A stretch of DNA of 64,000 nucleotides from Allacma fusca (taxonomy: Eukaryota; Arthropoda; Collembola; Symphypleona; Sminthuridae), in NCBI GenBank assembly GCA_947179485.1, contig OX359245.1, positions 66,513,067 through 66,577,066 of the forward strand, given 5' to 3'. This document shows positions 2,855-61,259 of the stretch, in pieces (position 1 is the first letter of the stretch; every line of letters begins with the position of its first letter). Made by a program: the position numbers and the translations under genes. The notes beneath the pieces are model-generated. The model saw nothing but the letters and a program-made list of their open reading frames with translations, was not told the origin of the DNA and made no database searches.

Positions 2855-5001
2855 CTATCCAGTATATTTGACTACCCGCTTCAAAACAACAACTGGTAAA
2901 CGATGAGAAACGGAGTAGTGCATGCACAATGGCTTGTGAGCCGTGCAACGGTATGCACATGAATTACATTTCAACAGTCCAATATTAGTTTTCTCATCCC
3001 TCAATTGGTTTCTGGGGCATTTCGATTCTCGAAGGGAGCCTTTGGATTTAATTACAGATACGTCATGGTTCCTCCTCTCATGTACAGACAATGTTGTTTT
3101 CCAGTTACAGGAATATGAGCAAAGCTTGCTTACACTTGTGTGATTTACCCGCCATGTGAGTCAATTCATGTTTCTCAAAATTAATTTAATGACCTGTCTG
3201 AAATGTACACTTCAAACACTTGAATTTACTCTCACCAGTGTGTCTTCTGGAATGGCTCTGCAATGTTGAGCGACGTTTGAACGTCCGGTTGCAAAATTCG
3301 CACTGGTAAGGTCTCCTGGCTGAATGAGTCTGCATGTGTCTTCTTAACATGGCATCACTCACACAAGCATAAGAGCAAAGTTTACAGGTGATTGGCTTTT
3401 CCCCCGTGTGAGTACTGAGGTGAAGGTTTAGTCCTGATGAGGAGGTATATTCCTTGACACAGAAATTACATTTGTACGGTCGCTCACCCGTGTGTTTCCC
3501 ACAGTGGGTGAACAGTAAGGCATTGGATTTGAAACCTGAAGAGCACATCTCACAGACAAAACGCCTTTCGTTTGAATGAGTTTCTAAATGTCGTAAGCCC
3601 TGGCGATTATAAAATTGCTTGGAGCAAGCATATTTTTTTTATATTTGTTTAATTTCTTGTTTGAATGAGTCGCCAAGTGCCCTTTCAAATAGTCTTGTAA
3701 ACGGAACTGCGCCGGACAAATATGGCAATTGTGGGGTTTTTCAGTAGTGTGTATCAAACATGGGCCTCTGTATAACCCCAGCCTATATCGTGCCCAGATT
3801 CAAAAATCATCGGCGGCCCCACCTCATAGCCTATAAGCAGAGCTTGTACAATTTAAGCATCCCCCATTTACGGCATCCAACAGCGCTTAGCGGCTTAGCC
3901 TACCCATAATGGTGTATAGGAAAGGCATTCAAGCGAACCCTAGCCTAGAAGGCAGCCCCTCAACCTCAACCTTTCCTACACATAAGCCTATATTCGTACC
4001 CTTCATTCATACATATACATATGAGAAGCAGAGTACCTTTTCTACGTATGTACTTGTGCATGTTCTTACTACACGTTGAGTTGTATTGTCATCCATTCTG
4101 TATTTTTTAACGCAGCCTTCAGCCGCCATTTCAAGTGAATAGTGAATCCGAAAGTAGACGAATCAAAATAAAAAGCAAAGAATAAAAGCGAACCATTAAC
4201 GATAATTCTGAACTTCTGAAGACAAATAAGTTTGTCTTGAAAAATAAATATCTCCGAAGTCCTATGTAATAGCAAGGACGACAAACAATCATTATTTCCC
4301 ATTTGCTCCACTAAATTTAGGGTGTTTTGATGTAGATTTTGACAAACTACTTTGTCCGAAAAAAAGTTTAAAGAATTGACTGTATACGTGGACCATATAT
4401 GCTGGCCTACCTATATTCCGTCTAGGCAATATAGTTTCCGTTAGGCCTAGCCTACTCTAGGCCCATAATGTTCCATTATTTGGCAACTTCCCTATATCTT
4501 CCCTATACGCCCATCACTTTGTGGAGCCCATCCTAGACGCTGGCCTATATTTTATCTCAATTGTTAGCCAGCCTAGCATTTTTGCCTAGATTCCATCCTA
4601 GATCTAGGCTGGGGGCCCATCTTTGGTGTGTATACTAACGTGGGTTTGAAGGTGGGCAAGTTGTTTGAAAGATCTAATGCAAAAATTGCATTTGTATGGC
4701 CTTTCTCCAGTGTGAACTCTACGATGCAACTTTAATGTATATGATGTGATAAACTGGGAAGAGCATTCTTCACATTTGTATGGTTTTTCTCCTTTATGAA
4801 TTTTCCTATGAAGATTAAGTTGACTGGTAGAAGGAAACGCGGAGGAGCACTCTTCACATTTGTATGGTCTCTCACCAGTGTGGACTCTCACATGAATGGT
4901 TAGGTCATGTTTCTTAGTAAATTTTGAAAAGCTGTAGTCACACTGAAATTTTCTTTCTACTTTTGGGACCACGATTATATTTCCAGCCGAATTATTAATC
5001 A
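2855..5001 (-). pseudogene. Broken C2H2 zinc-finger exon, copy A
   Basis: Minus-strand relative of the intact 13-finger exon at 24219-25468. The 5' part (about 4626-5001) follows a pyrimidine-rich stretch ending in CAG, a plausible splice acceptor at 5002-5004. It encodes fingers 1-4, but finger 1 reads C-D-Y-S, so its second zinc-binding cysteine is lost. A transposon at 3755-4625 then splits the array. Fingers 5-6 lie at about 3550-3750 in shifted frames with a T-rich expansion near 3633. Fingers 7-11 are open at 3186-3548. Fingers 12-13 lie at 2855-3091 in another frame. The breaks make a full-length zinc-finger protein very unlikely. C2H2 proteins of this type usually bind DNA in the nucleus; that is family knowledge and the target is unknown. 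Confidence 0.85.
3755..4625. mobile_element. Non-autonomous hAT-like element inside ZNF copy A
   Basis: 871 bp flanked by a perfect 8-bp target duplication GTGTGTAT (3747-3754 and 4626-4633). Its ends are CAAACATGGGCC and, on the opposite strand, CAAAGATGGGCC. ZNF copies B and C read straight through this point, so the empty site is known. An 8-bp duplication plus CANNG-type ends is the usual hAT signature. Both subterminal regions are crowded with short CCTAGCC and CCTATATT-like motifs in both orientations. No transposase-like frame is visible, so it would need an enzyme supplied in trans. Confidence 0.85.
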
Positions 5002-6985
5002 CTGTGGAACAAGAAAAGTAATTAAAATAATATTTCCCGATTAAATTAAACATTTAAGGATTAATTGAAATAAAGTTTTCATTGTGTTACATGAGTAGTT
5101 ACCCGAGTGTTACAAACTGTAGAATATACATACGTACATACTTGACCTACCATGCCGAATCTGCAAAAATTCAAGTTTCCAGATGAAAGTCTGTGAGGTT
5201 CTTGATTTAATTAACGAATTAACCCGTTGAATCAAATAATATAAAAAACACAATAGGGAATCTGAATTTAAACCTCTCTGATTACTTGTAAGATTTCACG
5301 CTGTTATACTCATTGGCTGTTATAATTTTGTGAAATTTCTATATATGTATAGGTTCCCATGGGATGACAAAATACCTGCAAAATATTGAGTTACCACTGT
5401 ATCTTTTTATTATATAATGTATCCGTACTCCTAGGGTGAATTCAATGACTTCAATAAAAAGGAATTGCTATCCAAGTGGAAACCTCTGTATTAAAAATTC
5501 ACTGACACCACTTATAAAATGAGATTTGTTCCGGTGACTGGGTATGTATCTTTTTAATAGAGAGCTGACACTGCTCCTATGATTTTTATGGGTACATTTT
5601 CGTACAGAAGATTCTGGCTCCAACTTTCCTGCGTGTGGTACAGACTGTTCCAGTGAATGTGCAGCTTACAATTAGATGGTAGATACGTTGTAACATAAAT
5701 TGGAAATCTTATGGACTCAAGGACACCTCCAAATATTACGTTACATGACACAATAGTAGTGAAAAAACTGACGTATGTTAATACAGGAGTAGTTACAGAA
5801 AACCTATGCGACCTCACATCTTTCGACGCGATGTCTTAAACATGTAGGGTCAGTGGTTCAATGTAAGCTGACGCAGCATTGTTGAGCAAAGGTGTTGCAT
5901 GTTAATTTTTTGTTTAAAATTATATTGGAACAATTTATAAAGTAAAGCTCAACGTTGATTTACATTCATGAGGTATTTAACTACAACGTATGATTTTGGA
6001 CAACCTCACAATCAGCTAACTTAATTCCTTTGGACAGCCAAAGTTAATTTATGAGAGGGGAGTATTGGAATTTCGAGAACCTTTCTTATGTAGTATGTAT
6101 TATTAAAAATCAAATTTGACAACTGTCGTGCCCAGATATCATTCAACCAATTTATTTGAAGACTGATGATTGTAAGTAAGATTTACATGAAGACACGTTT
6201 ACTTGTGCTAGCAGATACCCGTTACTTTTTGACTGGAGAAAGTTGTCAAAACAATCTACACATTCTTATCACTACTAGTACTGAGGCACAATTATGTATT
6301 CAAATATTCAAAGAATTTAACGTACAAAGAAGCATTCTGAATTAAAATTATCATTATCTGCATATTTTGTATTAACAACACGCACAATTTCTAAAACTGG
6401 CAGAATACAGACCGTCAATTCATTTTCAATTCTGAAGTGCTGAAATATCTTGCATATGTAAAGAGGAAAAAATATTTCTTTAAATGAATACAAGTACGTA
6501 ATTGCACAAAGCATGTATACGAGTAACATAATTACACAAACGTGACTTTAGTAATGCTTATTCTATGCTATATATGTATATATTTCTATCTCACTTTATC
6601 ATCCTTCGGGTTTACAGGTCAACTGGGTTTGTAGATTTCCATGTACTTTGTTTTACTTCAACGAATATTTTGTTACACAGTTCAAGGGAAGAGATGAAGT
6701 AAAACTAATTACATTGGGATGTATAATGAAGGAGGCGCGACTGTCTTGATCCTTTCAGCTTTCTCATCTGCTAGTATTGATCTAACATTTCTATAATATT
6801 TTGCAATCCCTCAAAGTTCTAAATGTATTATGAACCCCGAAATTAACCGATACAAGCACCAGTACATTTTTAAATTATTTATTTTAAGCTGAATGCAATT
6901 TCATTTTGACACAAACACAGCAGAGTTCGTTACAAAATACCGTTAAACTTCGTAAATTATAAACGTATATTAATTTAGACTTAAC

Positions 6986-7222
6986 ACTAAGAGTTAAACA
7001 AACGCAATTATCTTGTGACACACAAATTGAGTTTGTCATTCAGTCATAACCTTCCGTAAGATTTCCCTTTAAATCCTAAGGTTAAAGGTCAGAGTTTCGG
7101 TAACACGATAATCTTAAATTAAAGGCCACTTGTAACTGAGGACCAGTATCGGATCTCACAATCTCCGAAGGGCCATGTCTTCCGAAAATGATATGGCTTA
7201 TTAGACACATCATTTAAGAATT
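6986..7222. other. Gap before the small-ORF cluster
   Basis: Similarity to the ZNF units fades out near 6985. Up to the ATG at 7223 I see only short AT-rich unique sequence with in-frame stops, and no clear promoter or further member of the ORF family. Confidence 0.4.
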
Positions 7223-7516
7223 ATGACAAGTAACTACGATTCCCCACTTGAAGCCACTCTCTGTGTCCTTTCAAAATCAACAAAGATTATTCTTTCCATA
7301 TCAGACCATCATCAGATAACCATTAAAGAATATCAAGGTCCCTCAGAAACCCACGTTTTTAAATTATCAGTCAAACACAACCATATTCTATATCAAAAAG
7401 TATTTGACACTTTAAAAGACCTGTATATTTTTATGCTATCTACCCCTAATGCCCACTTCGGCTACCAAATGGCACAAATCCTACCACACGAAATCATAAT
7501 TGAAGATAGTGATTAA
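7223..7516 (+). CDS. Small ORF 1 of a five-member related cluster, 97 aa
   Basis: An uninterrupted ATG-to-TAA frame of 97 codons. I do not recognise the protein. Its second half has the pattern shared by the next four frames: a hydrophobic beta-like stretch (FKLSV), a lysine/phenylalanine segment (YQKVF), a hydrophobic helix-like run (LYIFM) and then TPN-x3-GYQM. It carries an extra acidic tail ending IIEDSD. There is no signal peptide or membrane segment. It is the best preserved and longest member. A 157-bp gap, in which I see nothing, separates it from ORF 2. Intron-free packing of related short frames is unlike the surrounding genome and more like a compact viral or mobile genome; that origin is inference only. 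Confidence 0.55.
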   Translation: MTSNYDSPLEATLCVLSKSTKIILSISDHHQITIKEYQGPSETHVFKLSVKHNHILYQKVFDTLKDLYIFMLSTPNAHFGYQMAQILPHEIIIEDSD

Positions 7517-7673
7517 TCTTTCTGCATGACTCTCACAGCAGAAAAAAAGATATAAACACGGCCCAGCAACTACGTCAAGATCAACATACGGTATAAAACT
7601 TTCCTCATTATATGACCATTTAAGTAATCGAATGACAAGATTAACATAAGAACATTCTTTTCATTTCGTTTCT

Positions 7674-8335
7674 ATGGCATATCTAGAGAAACAACCTGGA
7701 ATTATAACTAGCTTTGAAACTCCAGCTTCCGATCGCCCTATACTCTGCACGGATTGTATAGAATTCGAACAAATCATTAGAGCTGACGGCTCCACTTTTC
7801 ACCTCCTAAGAGTAAAAAGAGGAGTCCAAATATTTCACAAACACTTTACCACCCACCAGGGGTCGGATTTATGTAGGAAGACGGGAAGAATCTTCCCAGG
7901 GAAAAAAAAATTTCAGCAGGGAAATTTTCAAACGTGATTGCAAACAGGGATTTACAAATCTGTTGACCTTTTTTTTGGCAGGGATTTTTGAAATTGTTGA
8001 GGTGTTTTACTGAAAATGATTTTTGTCAACAGGGATTTTCGAAATTGTTGAGGTGTTTTACGAAAATGCTTTTTTGTCAGCAGGGATTTTCAAATTTGTT
8101 GACCTTTTTTTCAGCAGGGATTTTTAAATTTGTTGGGGTTTATTACGAAAATTGTTTTGTCAACAGGGAGTTTTAAACTTGCTTCGAACAGGGACATCGT
8201 GACCAGCAGGGAAAATAAAAAAAATCTTCCAGGGAGATTTACAAAAATCCGACCCCTGCCACCCACCAGCAACTAATTATATTCCTTTGTACCACCCCTA
8301 ATGTTTCACTAGGATATGGTATGACAGAAGTATAA
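7674..8335 (+). pseudogene. Small ORF 2 of the cluster, split by a transposon
   Basis: The ATG at 7674 opens a frame related to ORF 1. After about 61 codons it is interrupted by the 402-bp element at 7857-8258. The remaining codons, including the shared TPN-x3-GYGM motif, follow the element, and the frame ends at TAA 8333-8335. The duplicated 8 bases account exactly for the disruption, so the reading frame was probably open before the insertion. As it stands, the frame runs into transposon sequence and stops at 7937. The TAA directly abuts the ATG of ORF 3 (TAAATG). Confidence 0.6.
7857..8258. mobile_element. Short hAT-like MITE inside ORF 2
   Basis: 402 bp with near-perfect inverted ends CAGGGGTCGGATTT and a perfect 8-bp target duplication CCACCCAC (7849-7856 and 8259-8266). 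The CAGGGGTCGG-type end is characteristic of hAT elements. The interior consists of repeats of a CAGCAGGGATTTTCAAA-like motif and the related TTGTTGACC and GAGGTGTTTTA motifs. It has no coding capacity of its own; the 62-codon frame at 7988-8176 is just this repeat read as protein. Confidence 0.9.
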
Positions 8336-8581
8336 ATGAGTAATTTTAGACCAGGAATAGCATACGAATTTGAAATTCCCCTAAATGAAATTACCATTTC
8401 CCCTAATTACCACATAGAAACTTCTGACATACTTCAAACTATTAACACGTATATGTATATTTTAAGAATTCGAAAGGGTAGTCAAGTTGGTGAAAATTAC
8501 TTTAACTCTCACCAAGATTTAATGAATTTTCTCACACGCAACCCTCACATAAATTTCAGTCCACCATCCAATGAAAAATAG
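8336..8581 (+). CDS. Small ORF 3 of the cluster, 81 aa
   Basis: ATG-to-TAG frame of 81 codons that starts immediately after the stop of ORF 2 and overlaps the start of ORF 4 by 11 bp. It aligns with the other members by position: YILRIRKG matches LLRVKRG of ORF 2, and ENYFNSHQDLMNFL matches HKHFTTHQ plus the hydrophobic run. The TPN-x3-G motif is degenerate (NPHINFSP). Function unknown. Abutting and overlapping frames are unusual for insect-type nuclear genes. Confidence 0.5.
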   Translation: MSNFRPGIAYEFEIPLNEITISPNYHIETSDILQTINTYMYILRIRKGSQVGENYFNSHQDLMNFLTRNPHINFSPPSNEK

Positions 8582-8800
8582 TTTACCAGTTATTCAAGAA
8601 TATTGGAGAATTCCCATGAAAGACAATGATTATGCCGAATATGAATTAATCAGACTTCATGATAACTCCCTAATTCACCGCCTAACACTAACATTCAACT
8701 CTAAACAATTCAAAAAAGCTTTTATCTCAATAACCAATTTTTTCGATTTATTTACACCCACCCCAACTTATTTTATGGTCAAGGTATGATAGAAATATGA
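8571..8800 (+). pseudogene. Small ORF 4 of the cluster, frameshifted near its end
   Basis: The ATG at 8571 overlaps ORF 3. The frame runs 72 codons to TGA 8787-8789, with the family features FKKAF and a hydrophobic run (ITNFFDLF). Just after this, the family C-terminal motif (PN-x4-GQGM) appears in the next frame and ends at TGA 8798-8800. A single-base insertion or deletion within the C-rich tract near 8757-8765 therefore probably broke the end of this copy. In the shifted frame its stop overlaps the ATG of ORF 5 (ATATGA). Confidence 0.5.
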
Positions 8801-9011
8801 AAATTAACACCTTGTTTTATTATAAGCACCCTCTCATCTACCCCATTACGAGTAAAACGGTTCAAATCTTGACTGTGCCATACATATTTTGACAGTCTCT
8901 TCTTATCAACAACACAAACATCAAAGACAATTTTCCTCGTTTGAAATCCTTATGGAATTTGTGGGACTCACTCCGAATGTTACTACTGGTCAAGACATGA
9001 ACCCAGCATAA
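8797..9011 (+). pseudogene. Small ORF 5 of the cluster, frameshifted
   Basis: The ATG at 8797 opens about 31 codons in one frame. The family C-terminal half then continues in another frame, with a beta-like stretch IHILTV, a Q/H-rich linker, FEILMEFV and LTPNVTTGQDM, to a TAA at 9009-9011. The match to the conserved TPN-x3-G-x2-M motif of ORFs 1 and 2 is clear. At least one frameshift near 8860 separates the halves. It was found by reading frames against ORFs 1-4 and is too broken to appear as one open frame. Confidence 0.5.
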
Positions 9012-9979
9012 AAATCAAGTTCGGTCTCTTTCCTTTACGTTTATATGCGCCAACTGGTCTAAAAAAGGGTATGCTCAATCCTTGATACTATAGATTATAC
9101 ATTTTCTGTAATTTCCCCTTAATTTCCTTATATTTCATTAATTTTTGTTTAAGAAATTTTGGCTCACAATTTATCTTCGCTTCAAGGATCAGTCCATCTT
9201 CCACATGGTGGCGTAACTAAAGTAATACCACATCACTACATAAGTCGTAGGTTAAATCATTAGAATAATTTCTTGGCAGAATATTATAAGCTCTAGCTTT
9301 TAAACAAGGACCCAAAAACGCGGCGAAAAACGTTTTTCTTGAATATATTAGCATTAGGGCATAATCATTAATCACTTTAAATAACATCCAGAAGTAATAA
9401 TAATAATTAGGTACATGATGTATATTTATGAGAATCAAGTTATTAAAAACATTACCTTCCTATATATCAATATTTGACATCAGAATATATGTAGGGAACA
9501 CACAAATGCATTAACCATTTTTCTCTCTAAGAATATAAACAAAAAGAACTCTACAAACACATCTACTATTAACGGACTAGGTATTTTAAGACCACTTATA
9601 ATAAGATAAAGGGACATCAAGTTGGTTACTTCTATTTTTATCAAAGTTGATTCTATAACAAGCATTTCATTCTTAAACTCTTCCAATAATTTCATAAAGG
9701 TATAATGATATCAAAATTATAAATAGATGGTCATAAGTTGTAATATGTCGAGCTAATACTGAATGTTAAAAGAACGTTCTAAAATTTCATACTAATTGTT
9801 AACTTACATTTAAGACATATATAAGAGACATTGTAGTTTCTTCAAAGTTTTCAAATACTGTTTACCGATCTTAAAATCACGGAACTCAGAAAAGCGGCTT
9901 CAGCAACAGAAATTCTAGGAATCTTCGATCTTCCTTCAGGTGTAACTATTAACAGTTATCACCTGGTCTTGTATATAAC
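9012..9979. other. AT-rich interval with no gene seen
   Basis: This interval holds AT-rich unique sequence. Frames of up to about 73 codons occur on the minus strand (9217-9438, 9480-9695) but have no recognisable motif, no relatives elsewhere in the window and biased AT composition, so I do not call them genes. Confidence 0.5.
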
Positions 9980-9997
9980 TATAGTTTCTAGCCATTT

Positions 9998-10164
9998 GTA
10001 TGTATGTATTTTAGGGATTCGCTCTTATTGACTTAATAAGATGAGACTGCTCAGGCCACCAATGGGCCCATTGCAGATTTCCCTTTACAATTTACTGTGG
10101 GCGATTTGCAAAGCGACCTGTTGCAATAGAGTAATACAACAGGTCACTTGCTTTCGCCTTTTTT
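9998..10164 (+). mobile_element. SINE-like or small-RNA retroposed insertion
   Basis: A 167-bp sequence lies between two identical 18-base copies of TATAGTTTCTAGCCATTT (9980-9997 and 10165-10182). A duplication that long is typical of target-primed insertion by LINE machinery. The 3' end is a T-run (TTTTTT) like a pol III terminator, with no A-tail. Just before it is a hairpin with a 9-bp perfect stem, GACCTGTTG / CAACAGGTC. I do not recognise the RNA, and clear tRNA A and B boxes are not evident. Confidence 0.6.
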
Positions 10165-10337
10165 TATAGTTTCTAGCCATTTACTAAACATTGATGGTCA
10201 AATTAAAATACTATTAATTCCTCGATTCAAATATTGTATATTAATAAATATTGATTCTAACATTATCTGGAAAATTTTACAACAATTGCTACCTTAATTC
10301 AAATGTAAACATATCCAGTTAAAGTAAGAGTGTACCA

Positions 10338-10727
10338 GTGCAAGCAACATGCGCGTCCTTCGTGCCGTCAGCAGTCCATTCCCAATCCACCCCCTCAAAT
10401 GTTCCAAATAAAATTGGAGATGTAGAACCACCTGCCATTCAACTCCTTCGACTACAGCTCGAAATACAGAAAACCATAGAAAAAATCACACCATTCGAGC
10501 AAACTCTCCCATATCAGAACATTTTAATTAACAGACTGTTAATAGACTGTGTTAAATTCATTCTCTCTGCCAATGGGCTAATCAGAGCCCACTACACGGA
10601 AGAGTTCGAGACCTATGCTCAGACTATGAGTAGAATTTTACAATTGCTCGAAACGATCAATCCGGTTAATGCGGTTACAGTATATTGGGGGTTGACTCTC
10701 GAAATGTGTTACCCCGACAGACTTTAA
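10338..10727 (+). CDS. Possible terminal coding exon, unknown protein
   Basis: An open frame of about 130 codons, open from 10323, ends at TAA 10725-10727. No in-frame ATG lies near its start, so it is either the last exon of a spliced gene (CAG acceptors such as ACCAG at 10334-10338 are available) or a fragment. Codon composition is richer in C than the flanks. The translation is mostly helical with a leucine-rich tract (LLRLQLEIQKTIEKI) and a C-terminal segment LLETINPVNA. No family recognised. A weakly similar tail is seen in the remnant at 44476-44754, which I do not consider proof of kinship. The 514 bp that follow, up to 11241, show no gene. Confidence 0.45.
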   Translation: MQATCASFVPSAVHSQSTPSNVPNKIGDVEPPAIQLLRLQLEIQKTIEKITPFEQTLPYQNILINRLLIDCVKFILSANGLIRAHYTEEFETYAQTMSRILQLLETINPVNAVTVYWGLTLEMCYPDRL

Positions 10728-24218: not shown

Positions 24219-25468
24219 CTATCCCACATTTTTTACTACCCGCTTCAAAACAACAACTGGTAAACGATGAGAAACGGAGTAGTGCATGCACAATGTCTTG
24301 TGAGCCGTGCAAAGGAATCCACACGAATTACATATCAAGAGCCCAATATTATTTTTCTCATCCCTTAACTGATTTCTTACGCCTTTCGATCTTCGAAGGG
24401 AAACTTTGGGTTTAATTACGTCATGGTTCCTCCTCTCATGCATAGACAATGTTCTTTTCCAGTTGCAGGAATATGAACAAAACGTACACTTGTGCGGTTT
24501 ATTCCCCATATGAGTTAGCTCATGTTTCTCAAAATTAGCATTACAATCGGTCTGAAATGTGCACTTCAAACAGTTGAATTTACTCTCACCAGTGTGCCTT
24601 CTGGAATGGCTCTTGAATGCTGAGCGACGCTTGAACGTCCAATTGCAAAATTCGCATTGGTAAGGTCTCCTGGCCGAATGAGTCAGCATGTGTTTTCCTA
24701 ACGTTGTATAACCCACACAAGCAAAAGAACAAAGTTTACAGGTGAGTGGCCTCTCCCCCGTGTGAGTACTGAGATGAAGTTTTAGTCCTGTTGAGGAGAT
24801 ATATTCCTTGACACAGAAATTGCATTTATATGGTCTTTCCCCCGTATGTGTCCTGCAGTGGGTCAACAGTAAGGCTTTGGATTTGAAACCGGAAGAACAC
24901 ATCCCACAGGTAAAAGGCCTTTCGTTTGAATGAGTTTGTAAATGCCTTAAGCCCGGGCGAGTACGAAATTGCTTCGAGCAAACATGACATTTGTATAATT
25001 TCTCACTTGAATGAATCTTCACATGTCCTTGCAAAAAGTCTTTTAGCCGGAACTGGGCCGGACAAATTGGGCACTTGTAGGGTTTCTCATTGGTGTGAGT
25101 ACCGACGTGGGCTCGTAGGTGGCCAGATTGTTTGAAAGATTTATTGCATAAATTACATTTGTATGGTCTTTCTCCGGTGTGGACTCTACGATGAATCTTT
25201 AATTTAGCTGAAGATATGAACTGGGAAGAGCATTCTTCACATTTGTATGGTTTTTCCCCCGTATGGATTCTCCTATGAAGATTAAGTTGACTGGTGGAAG
25301 GAAATGCGGAGAAGCACTCTTTGCATTTGTATGGTCTCTCACCAGTGTGGACTCTCACATGAGTGGTTAGGTGATTTTTGGTAGCAAAGTTTCTAAAGCA
25401 ATAGTCACACTGAAATTTTCTTTCCACTATTGGGCCCATAATTAAATTTTCAGTCGAATTATTAATCA
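24219..25468 (-). CDS. C2H2 zinc-finger protein, 13 fingers, intact exon (copy B)
   Basis: A single open exon encoding thirteen tandem C2H2 fingers, most with C-x2-C-x12-H-x3-H spacing and TGE(R/K)PY linkers between fingers 1-4 and 7-8. Finger 6 is one residue short between cysteine and histidine (GLRH-LQTH). Fingers 9-13 have atypical linkers (SARRPY, TGESKF, MGNKPH) and fingers 12 and 13 use H-x4-H. A basic tail ends [11 protein letters not shown]. On the minus strand, TTTTCTTCTTCCACAG at 25469 and above is a strong splice acceptor, so the exon probably starts at 25468. The frame extending to 25592 is intron read-through, so upstream exons are needed for the true start. Such proteins are usually nuclear and DNA-binding; the target is unknown. 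It is the only unbroken member of the local array and probably the functional one. Confidence 0.85.
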
Positions 25469-25993
25469 CTGTGGAAGAAGAAAAGTACATCTTTTGTAAC
25501 TTGCAGCATACATAATTATATAGGTAGGCATTGATGTAAATACATATTTTAACGATGGCCGCCTTAAAACTAAAAAAATAGTACGTACTCAAAGTAGCGT
25601 ATGCTCAGCTCACAAATGTACAATCCTGGTTACGTTTTTAGCATAAATATTTAAAGATTAATTGCAAGTACGTGTTCAGTGTATTTATTGAGCACTTACC
25701 CGAGTGGCTCAATCTATAACGCATGCATACATATATAAGTACTTAACCTCTCTTACCAAATTTCCAAAAATTCAAGTGTCCAGATGAAAGTTTGAGAACT
25801 TCTTGATCTAATCAACGAATTTACCCTTTGAATTAAATAACCTGAAAAACAAAGAAAAGAGAATCTGTATTTATACCTCTCTGTGTACTTGTAAGATTTC
25901 ATGTAAATATACATTGATTGTTATAATTTTGTGAAATTTCTTTATAGTGGTTCCCAAGGGATGAAAAATACCTGCAAAATGTTGAGTTGCCAC

Positions 25994-38411: not shown

Positions 38412-39529
38412 TTAAATGTTTTGTGAACGGAATCCACACGAATTACATATCAAGAGCCCAGTATTTGTTTTCTCATCCCTCAGTTCATTTCTGTTGCCTG
38501 TCGATTTTCCAAGTAATGGTTTGGATTTAATTATGTCATGCTTCCTCCTCTCATGTAAATACAATGTTCCTTTTGTGTTACAGAAGTATGAACAGAACTT
38601 ACACTTGTGCGGTTTGTTCCCAAAATGAGTCAACTCATGTTTCTCAAAAATAATTTTAGAATCGGTCTGAAGTGGGCACTTCAAACATTTGAATTTACTT
38701 ACACCAGTGTGTCTTCTTGTATGGCTCTTGAATGTTGAGCGACGCTTGAACGTCCAATTGCAAAATTCGCATTGGTATGGCCTCCTGGCCGAATGAATTA
38801 GCATGTGTCTTATTAACATTACATCACTCACACAAGCATAAGAGCAAAGTTTGCAGCTGACTGGCTTCTCCCCCGTGTGAGTACTTGATGAAGTCTTAGT
38901 TCTAAAGAGGAGATATATTCCTTGACACTGAAATTGCATTTGTATGGTCTCTCACCCGTGTGTCTCCTGCAATGGCTCGGCTCAAAAGTAAAGCTTTAGA
39001 TTTGAAATCTGAAGAGCACAGCCCACAGACAAAAGGCCTATCGTTTGAATGAGTTACTAAATGTCCTTTAAGGCCGAGCAATTACGAAATTTCTTGGAGC
39101 AATTCAATTTGGCACTTATATAATTTCTCGCTTGAATGAGTCTTCACATGTGCTTGCAAAGAGGTTTTTAGCCGGAACTGCGCCGGGCAATTTGGGCACT
39201 TGTAGGGTTTTTCATTGATGTGTATACTGACGTGGGTTTGAAGGTGGCCAGATTGTTTGAAAGATTTAATGCACAAATTGCATTTGTATTGCCTTTCTCC
39301 AGTGTGGACTCTACGATGCATCTTTAATGAATATGAAGTGATAAACTGGGAAGACCATTCTTCGCATTTGTATGGTTTCTCTCCTCTATGTTTTCTCCTA
39401 TGAAGATGAAGTTGACCGGTAGAAGGAAATGCGGAGGAGCACTCTTCGCATTTGTATGATCTTTCACCAGTGTGGACTCTCACATGAACGATTAGATCAT
39501 GTTTCTTTTTAAATTTTGAAAATTAATCA
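38412..39529 (-). pseudogene. Broken C2H2 zinc-finger exon, copy C
   Basis: Relative of 24219-25468 with an intact-looking acceptor (CATAG) at 39530. The start of finger 1 is deleted and its frame shifted. Fingers 2-5 are open at 39082-39483, but one finger cysteine is now tryptophan (EEWSS). Finger 6 keeps full spacing (GLKGHLVTH) but is out of frame. Finger 8 lost its second cysteine to serine (CNFS) and has a frameshift. Fingers 9-12 are open at 38412-38939. Finger 13 is cut by a deletion after CNSCGF. The many independent lesions show it is not under protein-level constraint. Confidence 0.85.
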
Positions 39530-59750: not shown

Positions 59751-61259
59751 CTCGGGTTAGAACATCACACACTCAAGACAATCGTGATCCAGGAACATGA
59801 TTGGATATTCTTAGACAAAATCTAACGCACACAGTAATCCTAATCTCCCATTAGAATTCCATTTTCTTCTACATACCGTATTATTACATTCTTAACCCTT
59901 ACACTACTGTGCCTCTTTCGTTCTCCTTTCACGCAACGTGAGCTTTATGACTTCAGAGAGGGTACGTTTATAGAATTATGTTGTGCTTGTAAATATTTGT
60001 AAATATTGTTTTATGTATGAGAAAACCCATATGATTTGAGGTTTCTCTCCTTACGTTCAAATATTATTGTACATAAGTAATTTGAGAGAGATCTATGGGC
60101 TATTTGGAGTTTTTCATCTTAAGAAATACCGCAATCAGCAACACCTAGGAAAATCTGATGGTCAGTATTGACCATATATTTGTTACTATATATTGGTTTA
60201 TGATCACGTTGAACCCCATTTATTGATTTTGTTTATTATGTTTTACAACGAATAAAGGTTCATAGTTTATTATGTCTACGTTGACAGTCATAATTTATCC
60301 ACTACAGAAACAACCTTTTATTAGTATAAATAATTTATAATATATTTGATACATTTCATAGTTTTACCGTTTACGTCCTTAGCGAAGCCTCACTTCTGCG
60401 ATAATTCATTCAATATCGACTTCACATTTATTTTAATTATTTATTCCTTTTATCAAAATCTTGTAACTAAATAACTTTTAATTCCCCATTTCGATATAAT
60501 TATATTTTGATTCGAAAGTCTTAACAATAGTCCGCAGTATGCAGCTGTTAGAGTCCGTCAATTCAGACTTCTTTTACTGCAAAATCATACTTTGGCAAGT
60601 GGTTAAATTTAGCAATCTCTTAAATAATTAACGTCTTGCACTTTCCGAAAGTGCTTTTGTATTCGTTCCAGCGCTCAACTTGTATATGCATGGAAAAATA
60701 CGCCTCTACGTCGTAGGATACTTTATTGGATTTGCGGCGCACGAGACATCACCAGCGCTCTTTACACAATTCTATGTTTCGTACCAAGCCATTGGTCCAC
60801 TACCGGTGACACCGACACTAATTGTCTTGAAAATATCAAATGGTCATCATAACAGACAACATACCATATGATTTTTGTCCAGAATCCTTTAGAGTTAATT
60901 GATGACAACCAGTACCTAAGAAAAATCATGTTAGATAAAAATCTGCACAGTGGACAATAACACTTATACGAACGTAGTCAGTGCGTGACCTATAGTGACA
61001 TTAAAACATTATCACACGTCTTTAAATGGCGAAAACTGAACATGTGAGAAGATCAACGAATACATGACGCCGAAACTAGTTAAATTTTTCAATTGTATCG
61101 ATTTGGTTAAAATTCCCAAAACAAAATAACTGTTGAAGGGTTAATACCAAAGCAAGAATATATTGACGACGCAAACCTTCCACAATAAAAAAAATTTTGC
61201 AACAATGAAACTCCTTTTGCTTTACTTTGCATTGGTAACTCGTTATCATCACAATATGT
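59751..61259. other. Interval with no supported gene
   Basis: Mostly AT-rich unique sequence. A short frame at 60686-60871 (starts MHGKIRLYVVGYF, 61 codons) is the only part with more balanced composition. It has no recognised motif and no relative here, so I leave it uncalled. Confidence 0.4.

Follow-up and report, generated by a model that had tools for sequence, protein, structure and literature searches.

A cluster of small, tightly packed open reading frames (ORFs) in a 64,000-bp stretch of the Allacma fusca genome (C1:66513067-66577066; hereafter the window) is very probably an old, truncated internal fragment of a giant long terminal repeat (LTR) retrotransposon with Ty3/Gypsy gene order. 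In young copies of this element in the same genome, the cluster is an array of six tandem paralogous genes. An earlier note, made from the letters of the window alone, had described five related small ORFs and proposed a small-protein family of viral or other foreign origin that was locally duplicated and is now decaying. The foreign, mobile-element origin was borne out, the carrier being the LTR retrotransposon described here.

We searched the window's own genome (392.7 Mb) in six frames with the first of the small ORFs (ORF1, gene 1 of the array). This search returned 34 rows, including 12 dispersed relatives in open frames on C1, C8 and C10 with 51-54% identity; the remainder included broken or partial relatives. 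The DNA around eight of the copies (A to H) is common to them well beyond the small ORFs. A homologue of gene 3 was found at 15 loci, the window included (68 rows). At 11 loci (25 rows) an ORF of 795 amino acids (aa) was complete and free of stops, as was a 139-aa ORF at 12 loci (15 rows, from which copy A is absent). The LTRs are about 1445 bp long. The two members of a pair are 100% identical in copies B to G, which are six of the eight copies compared, and 99.66% identical in A. The copy B pair was compared over 1411 bp, as its 5' LTR starts beyond the stretch analysed, and for copy H no LTR pair was found within the stretches compared. In copies C to G, the LTRs have the termini TGTT...AACA. 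Target duplications of 4 bp with the pattern RTAT were resolved in five of seven copies (ATAT in C, D, E and G, GTAT in F; A and B not resolved). From the first to the last LTR base, the element measures 24,602-24,830 bp in C to G, at least 24,862 bp in B and about 22.9 kb in A. The primer site directly after the 5' LTR corresponds to the end of the valine transfer RNA (tRNA-Val). Exact matches to its 13-base pattern occur at 18 sites genome-wide, compared with two for the reversed control. Twelve of these 18 lie at element copies, five of the other six are tRNA-Val genes predicted by ARAGORN, and one has neither. We consider the element to be recently active.

The layout was read in copy D and is mostly found in the other copies read. 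It runs from the 5' LTR and tRNA-Val site through a repeat leader, small ORFs, gag, an in-frame TAG and pol to an overlapping 795-aa ORF, a spacer of about 3.3 kb, the six-gene array, the 139-aa ORF, a transmembrane ORF and the 3' LTR. The leader contains 136-bp tandem repeats (2.6 copies, stretch L028 1842-2195), and the self-matches there vary among copies. The pol of copy D is a frame of 1396 aa with the order protease, reverse transcriptase, RNase H and integrase. Its Pfam matches to reverse transcriptase, RNase H and H2C2 are above cut-off and in Ty3/Gypsy (Metaviridae) order, while those to RVP (20.1 vs 20.7 bits) and rve (20.5 vs 32.6 bits) are below it. The frame is also 1396 aa long in A, B, C and G, 992 in F and 809 in H; the stretch of copy E starts inside pol. 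Directly upstream, gag was read in copy D only, where it has two CCHC knuckles, recognised by eye, and a Retrotrans_gag score of 21.8 bits, below the 24.1 cut-off. The TAG between gag and pol is present in A, C, D, F and H (five of the eight copies, the stretches of B, E and G beginning past it; stretch L015 91-93), and in copy D the RNA from the TAG onward is predicted to fold more stably than 197 of 200 shuffled sequences. Since an in-frame stop is followed by a stable RNA fold, stop readthrough is likely at this site, as far as the sequence can tell. The 795-aa ORF has no Pfam match, and no match to an envelope (env) gene, such as errantiviruses and endogenous retroviruses carry, was found by Pfam in it or in the other ORFs scanned. 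The spacer before the array changes fast, differing between D and B by up to 18% per 500 bases, compared with 0-3.4% in pol.

This architecture bears directly on the viral option of the earlier note, that of an endogenous gene cluster from a DNA virus. The tight packing, the overlapping frames and the G-poor coding strand in the window (GC skew down to -0.44) would suit such an origin. However, in copies A to G the array is enclosed, together with a pol frame, by the LTR pair of a reverse-transcribing element; gag was read in copy D. When window ORF1, window ORF3 and young genes 3 and 4 were each scanned against viral contigs, no relative was found (genes 2, 5 and 6 not scanned), and window positions 7200-7860 had no blastn match among phage records. 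Contradicted by the LTR pairs, a DNA-virus carrier is highly improbable, and we reject it.

Pieces of copy D matched the window by blastn at 7248-7484, 7612-7858, 8261-9997 and 10166-10663 with 68-76% identity, and all four matches derive from the 3' part of the element. Stretches with gag, pol and the 795-aa ORF had no blastn match in the window at E 1e-4, except for an LTR-like match at 59885-60094. Because only pieces from the 3' part match, we read the window copy as a truncated old fragment. The related stretch extends to about 10.7 kb and includes a homologue of the 139-aa ORF (Table 1). Positions 59885-60094 are 64% identical to part of the element LTR and are a possible LTR relic.

Table 1. 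Features of the old element fragment in the window (positions within the window; ORF numbers are those of the earlier note).
Feature	Position	Strand	Description
Gene 1 (ORF1)	7223..7516	+	Open, 97 aa; amino acid identity to young copy B (gene 1) 51%
Gene 2 remnant	7485..7611	+	127 bp, compared with about 258 bp in young copy D; taken from the gap between blastn matches ending at 7484 and starting at 7612
Gene 3 (ORF2), part before insert	7674..7856	+	84% aa identity to young gene 3 (62 residues)
DNA-transposon-like insert, apparently non-autonomous	7857..8258	.	402 bp; 19-bp inverted ends CAGGGGTCGGATTT.../...AAATCCGACCCCTG; internal repeats; 8-bp direct repeat (duplication) CCACCCAC at 7849-7856 and 8259-8266
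Gene 3, part after insert	8261..8335	+	Ends in TAA, followed at once by the next ATG
Gene 4 (ORF3)	8336..8581	+	Open, 81 aa; amino acid identity to its young counterpart 79%
Gene 5 (ORF4)	8571..8800	+	11-bp overlap with gene 4; C-terminal part in another frame; open frame of ORF4 8571-8789, 72 aa
Gene 6 (ORF5)	8797..9011	+	Start overlaps gene 5 end (ATGA); frame broken
Stretch after the array	9012..9997	+	About 70% nucleotide match to the same stretch of young copy D
Homologue of the 139-aa ORF	10338..10727	+	83% aa identity over 94 residues (10386-10667)

The five small frames are where the earlier note had placed them, but the element they come from has six genes. ORFs 1 to 5 are element genes 1, 3, 4, 5 and 6, and gene 2 is mostly deleted. 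ORF2 is cut by the insert, past which (7856) its frame is foreign to gene 3; we take the insert to be hAT-like from its inverted ends and 8-bp direct repeat. Together with frame breaks in genes 5 and 6, these lesions support the decay that had been proposed for the window copy, and ORF1 is still intact, as had been said. The decay does not extend to the family as a whole, which has six open frames in seven of the nine other arrays read. Searches of the window with Rfam and ARAGORN gave no match. Another old fragment, L034, lies about 95 kb away. It is broken too, but a gene-2 frame is still present, and its three matching pieces share 76-83% identity with the window copy.

Those nine arrays are from copies A to H and stretch L004, with the window and the broken L034 left aside. 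They contain six tandem paralogues of 98, 75, 83, 81, 76 and 78 aa, which are all open in A to F and L004; gene 1 of copy D, which spans two stretches, rests on the genome search, and gene 5 of copy E on separate comparisons. In copy G, codon 2 of gene 1 is a stop, and genes 2 and 6 are shortened in copy H. Genes 1 and 2 are 37-38 bp apart in A, B, C, E and F, and 111 bp apart in L004. The further gaps are 23 bp, 0 (TAAATG), -11 and -4 (ATGA) wherever both neighbours are listed. The TAAATG, 11-bp overlap and ATGA contact described earlier for the window are therefore junctions of the young copies as well. The stop-to-start packing, the position between identical LTRs and the 12 dispersed gene 1 relatives in open frames all speak against the frames being exons of one ordinary host gene, one of the two refuting outcomes that the earlier note had named. 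We found no points in support of that explanation and reject it, its probability being close to nil.

We compared the frames pairwise by local alignment against shuffled partners. In copy A, 13 of the 15 gene pairs had scores reached by at most 7 of 2000 shuffles, the weaker pairs being genes 1 and 4 (269/2000) and genes 4 and 6 (32/2000). The genome search with gene 3 also retrieved gene 4 (E about 2e-6), gene 5 (1e-4 to 5e-4), gene 2 (about 0.02) and gene 6 (0.84). Within the window, the front of ORF2 before the insert matched ORF3 by tblastn (E 4e-7) with a local-alignment score reached by none of 2000 shuffles, and the same count was obtained for ORF1 against the stretch after the insert. 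Scores were reached by one shuffle for ORF1 and ORF3, three for ORF2 and ORF4, and nine for ORF1 and ORF5 (2000 each). Taken alone, ORF1 against the front of ORF2 (937/2000) and ORF3 against ORF4 (348/2000) are at chance level, so the mutual similarity claimed for the five frames exceeds chance for several pairs and not for all.

The same-numbered genes are matched far better between the window and the young copies than other-numbered ones. Amino acid identities to the same-numbered young genes are given in Table 1, with 58% for gene 5, and synonymous sites are saturated or nearly so. Window genes 1, 4 and 5 are only 23-35% identical to young gene 3. The duplications therefore predate the split between the window and young copies. 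By these alignments, the six genes are shown to be paralogues that were already distinct when the window copy split off. The duplications were already in the element, and their proposed local origin at this site does not hold.

Between young copies, the array changes mostly at silent positions. For copies A and B, the nonsynonymous rate (dN) across the six genes is 0-0.022, the synonymous rate (dS) 0.12-0.46 and their ratio (omega) 0-0.09. Three genes compared between H and B have dN of 0.026-0.046 and dS of 0.44-0.96. In genes 2 to 6 of copies A to G, variable columns number 20, 8 and 106 at codon positions 1, 2 and 3, with gene 1 left out because it lies at the edge of stretches. Mostly third-position change and low omega are the pattern of proteins kept by selection, and the array proteins are shown to be under strong purifying selection.

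Searches of the window ORFs against Pfam, PHROGs and PDB sequences returned weak rows only. The strongest, a match of ORF4 to a DNA polymerase row in PHROGs (E 0.0038, 55 residues), was given no weight. In the searches made, the array proteins had no relative beyond the A. fusca genome. A single weak fold model of an array protein has the order strand-strand-strand-strand-helix, and PUR chains recur among its weak fold matches; fold searches with this weak model gave no significant match. The PUR and PC4 families had no sequence match in the Pfam or PDB profile searches (best PDB row E 0.18, another family). The predicted order of four strands and a helix and the recurring PUR chains resemble PUR-alpha and PC4-like (whirly) proteins, and the low-confidence model hints at a PUR/PC4-like fold.

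Each array protein would then be a small single-strand nucleic-acid binder with a beta4-alpha, PUR/PC4-like architecture. The proteins might act on the long RNA or complementary DNA (cDNA) of the element, or shield it from the host, with the paralogues forming a hetero-oligomeric set. We put this function forward tentatively, as a possibility with more doubt than confidence. The six genes would be accessory genes translated from one RNA or a subgenomic RNA, and the last four, which are linked by stop-start contacts, may be translated by termination-reinitiation.

The six proteins might instead be counter-defence factors, such as suppressors of small-RNA silencing or decoys for restriction factors, whose paralogues meet different host partners. 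Differing partners would explain why the genes were duplicated and why gene 1 has changed faster between the old and young lineages, as seen in its window-young identity of 51%, compared with 79% for gene 4, 84% for gene 3 and 83% for the 139-aa ORF. Much synonymous and almost no amino acid change between young copies is also compatible with pressure on the nucleotide sequence. However, counter-defence genes often have raised omega, and the A-B values are low for all six genes; nor did Pfam match any of them to a known suppressor. We consider this role conceivable but questionable. A structural role, in which the array products are small subunits of a long-RNA particle, either decorating its capsid or outer shell or standing in for part of it, appears unlikely. 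It would agree with the strong conservation, the several related subunits, the very long element and a 795-aa ORF without an envelope match by Pfam, but the fold searches, albeit with a weak model, gave no significant match.

The element carries other small ORFs besides the array and the putative nucleic-acid binders it encodes. The frames that precede gag in copy D encode 53, 81, 94, 148 and 66 aa. The 148-aa frame would give 128 aa if started at an internal ATG and has 106 aa in copy A, and the 66-aa frame stops 6 bp short of gag. When these ORFs of D were set against their counterparts in B, C, E, F, G and A, dN was lower than dS unless there was no change at all (53-aa ORF in B and C), with several values resting on few changes; copy H gave no counterpart. 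An 87-aa ORF precedes the 3' LTR. Its dN is about equal to dS in B (0.031 and 0.033) and is the lower of the two in C, E, F and G; copies A and H yielded no counterpart. The 53-, 66- and 87-aa products of copy D each have one strongly hydrophobic stretch, with Kyte-Doolittle maxima of 2.6, 3.0 and 2.6. By hydropathy alone, these short ORFs with one predicted transmembrane segment, near gag or after pol, resemble sORF2/FAST-like proteins. They begin with MA, MT and MT and so lack the N-terminal myristoylation motif MGxxxS/T.

We do not claim the pre-gag ORFs as members of the array family, given that 36 comparisons were made; the best was the 81-aa ORF against gene 4 (2/500 shuffles), followed by pairs at about 15 and 21 of 500. 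Likeness among the pre-gag frames themselves provides leads only (81- and 94-aa ORFs, 2/1000 shuffles; 81- and 89-aa frames, 10/1000; 53- and 66-aa ORFs, 12/1000), and the size of the 89-aa frame (L028 6108-6377) is not kept in other copies. Taken as a whole, an operon-like, stop-start-coupled family of six nucleic-acid-binding proteins plus three FAST-like membrane microproteins could represent an envelope-less genome of complex-retrovirus type that moves from cell to cell, although we consider this rather improbable.

Several known systems share features with this element. The Burro elements of planarians are giant Gypsy-like LTR retrotransposons of over 30 kb with accessory ORFs (PMC6431247). 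Like the A. fusca element, they exceed 20 kb and have extra coding capacity and tandem repeats, but their extras are described as one giant polyprotein with BIR, BCL2-like, MATH and Env-like parts (PMC6431247). The extras of the A. fusca element are separate small ORFs, including six tandem paralogues, without a recognised domain. Drosophila elements of the MDG1 group (412, Stalker2) have two small ORFs before gag, sORF1 and sORF2, one of which encodes a FAST-like membrane protein tied to cell-to-cell passage (PMC11952523). The likeness lies in the small conserved pre-gag ORFs, the short membrane protein and the low nonsynonymous rate, and some Lepidoptera elements have sORF2 downstream of pol, like the third transmembrane ORF here (PMC11952523). 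The MDG1-group transcripts are about 7 kb with two sORFs (PMC11952523), whereas the A. fusca element is about 24.7 kb, with about five ORFs before gag and six paralogues and more after pol. None of its three membrane ORFs starts with the MG myristoylation motif, although sORF2 proteins without this motif also exist (PMC11952523). LTR retrotransposons of bdelloid rotifers likewise have extra ORFs beyond gag and pol; these captured ORF3s are env-like or encode a GDSL esterase/lipase or a DEDDy exonuclease, and the abstract mentions no paralogue array (PMC5408684).

Large size and small accessory ORFs are already known in LTR elements. A tandem array of paralogues, with six members as here, was found in none of the matches listed in a search of literature titles and abstract starts, with subscription papers mostly outside.

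The surroundings of the window copy hold further features. Four old fragments lie in the same orientation within about 335 kb, at C1:66391141, 66520289 (window position 7223), 66614239-66616258 and 66723656-66725944. The young copies are located away from this group (C1:66.39-66.73 Mb). Such clustered fragments could mark a trap such as a Piwi-interacting RNA (piRNA) cluster, or a segmental duplication. The window part of the region has zinc-finger genes, with C2H2 frames, of similar sequences on the minus strand, at 2858-5053, 24219-25592 and 38412-39522. Positions 9998-10165 are not present in young copy D, have a near-perfect direct repeat of about 18 bp on both sides (9980-9997 and 10165-10182) and resemble the insertion of a short retroposon. 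Directly upstream of gene 1, a short minus-strand frame (7082-7213) presumably resembles the integrase of another LTR element and may mark the fragment edge.

Accessory genes that stem from repeated duplication occur in complex viruses. Six paralogues that are kept apart with near-absolute protein conservation make this element a test case for the role of accessory genes in elements without a recognised envelope. The array is likewise a test case for the translation of closely packed ORFs by animal ribosomes and for the handling of a reverse-transcribed RNA of 25 kb.
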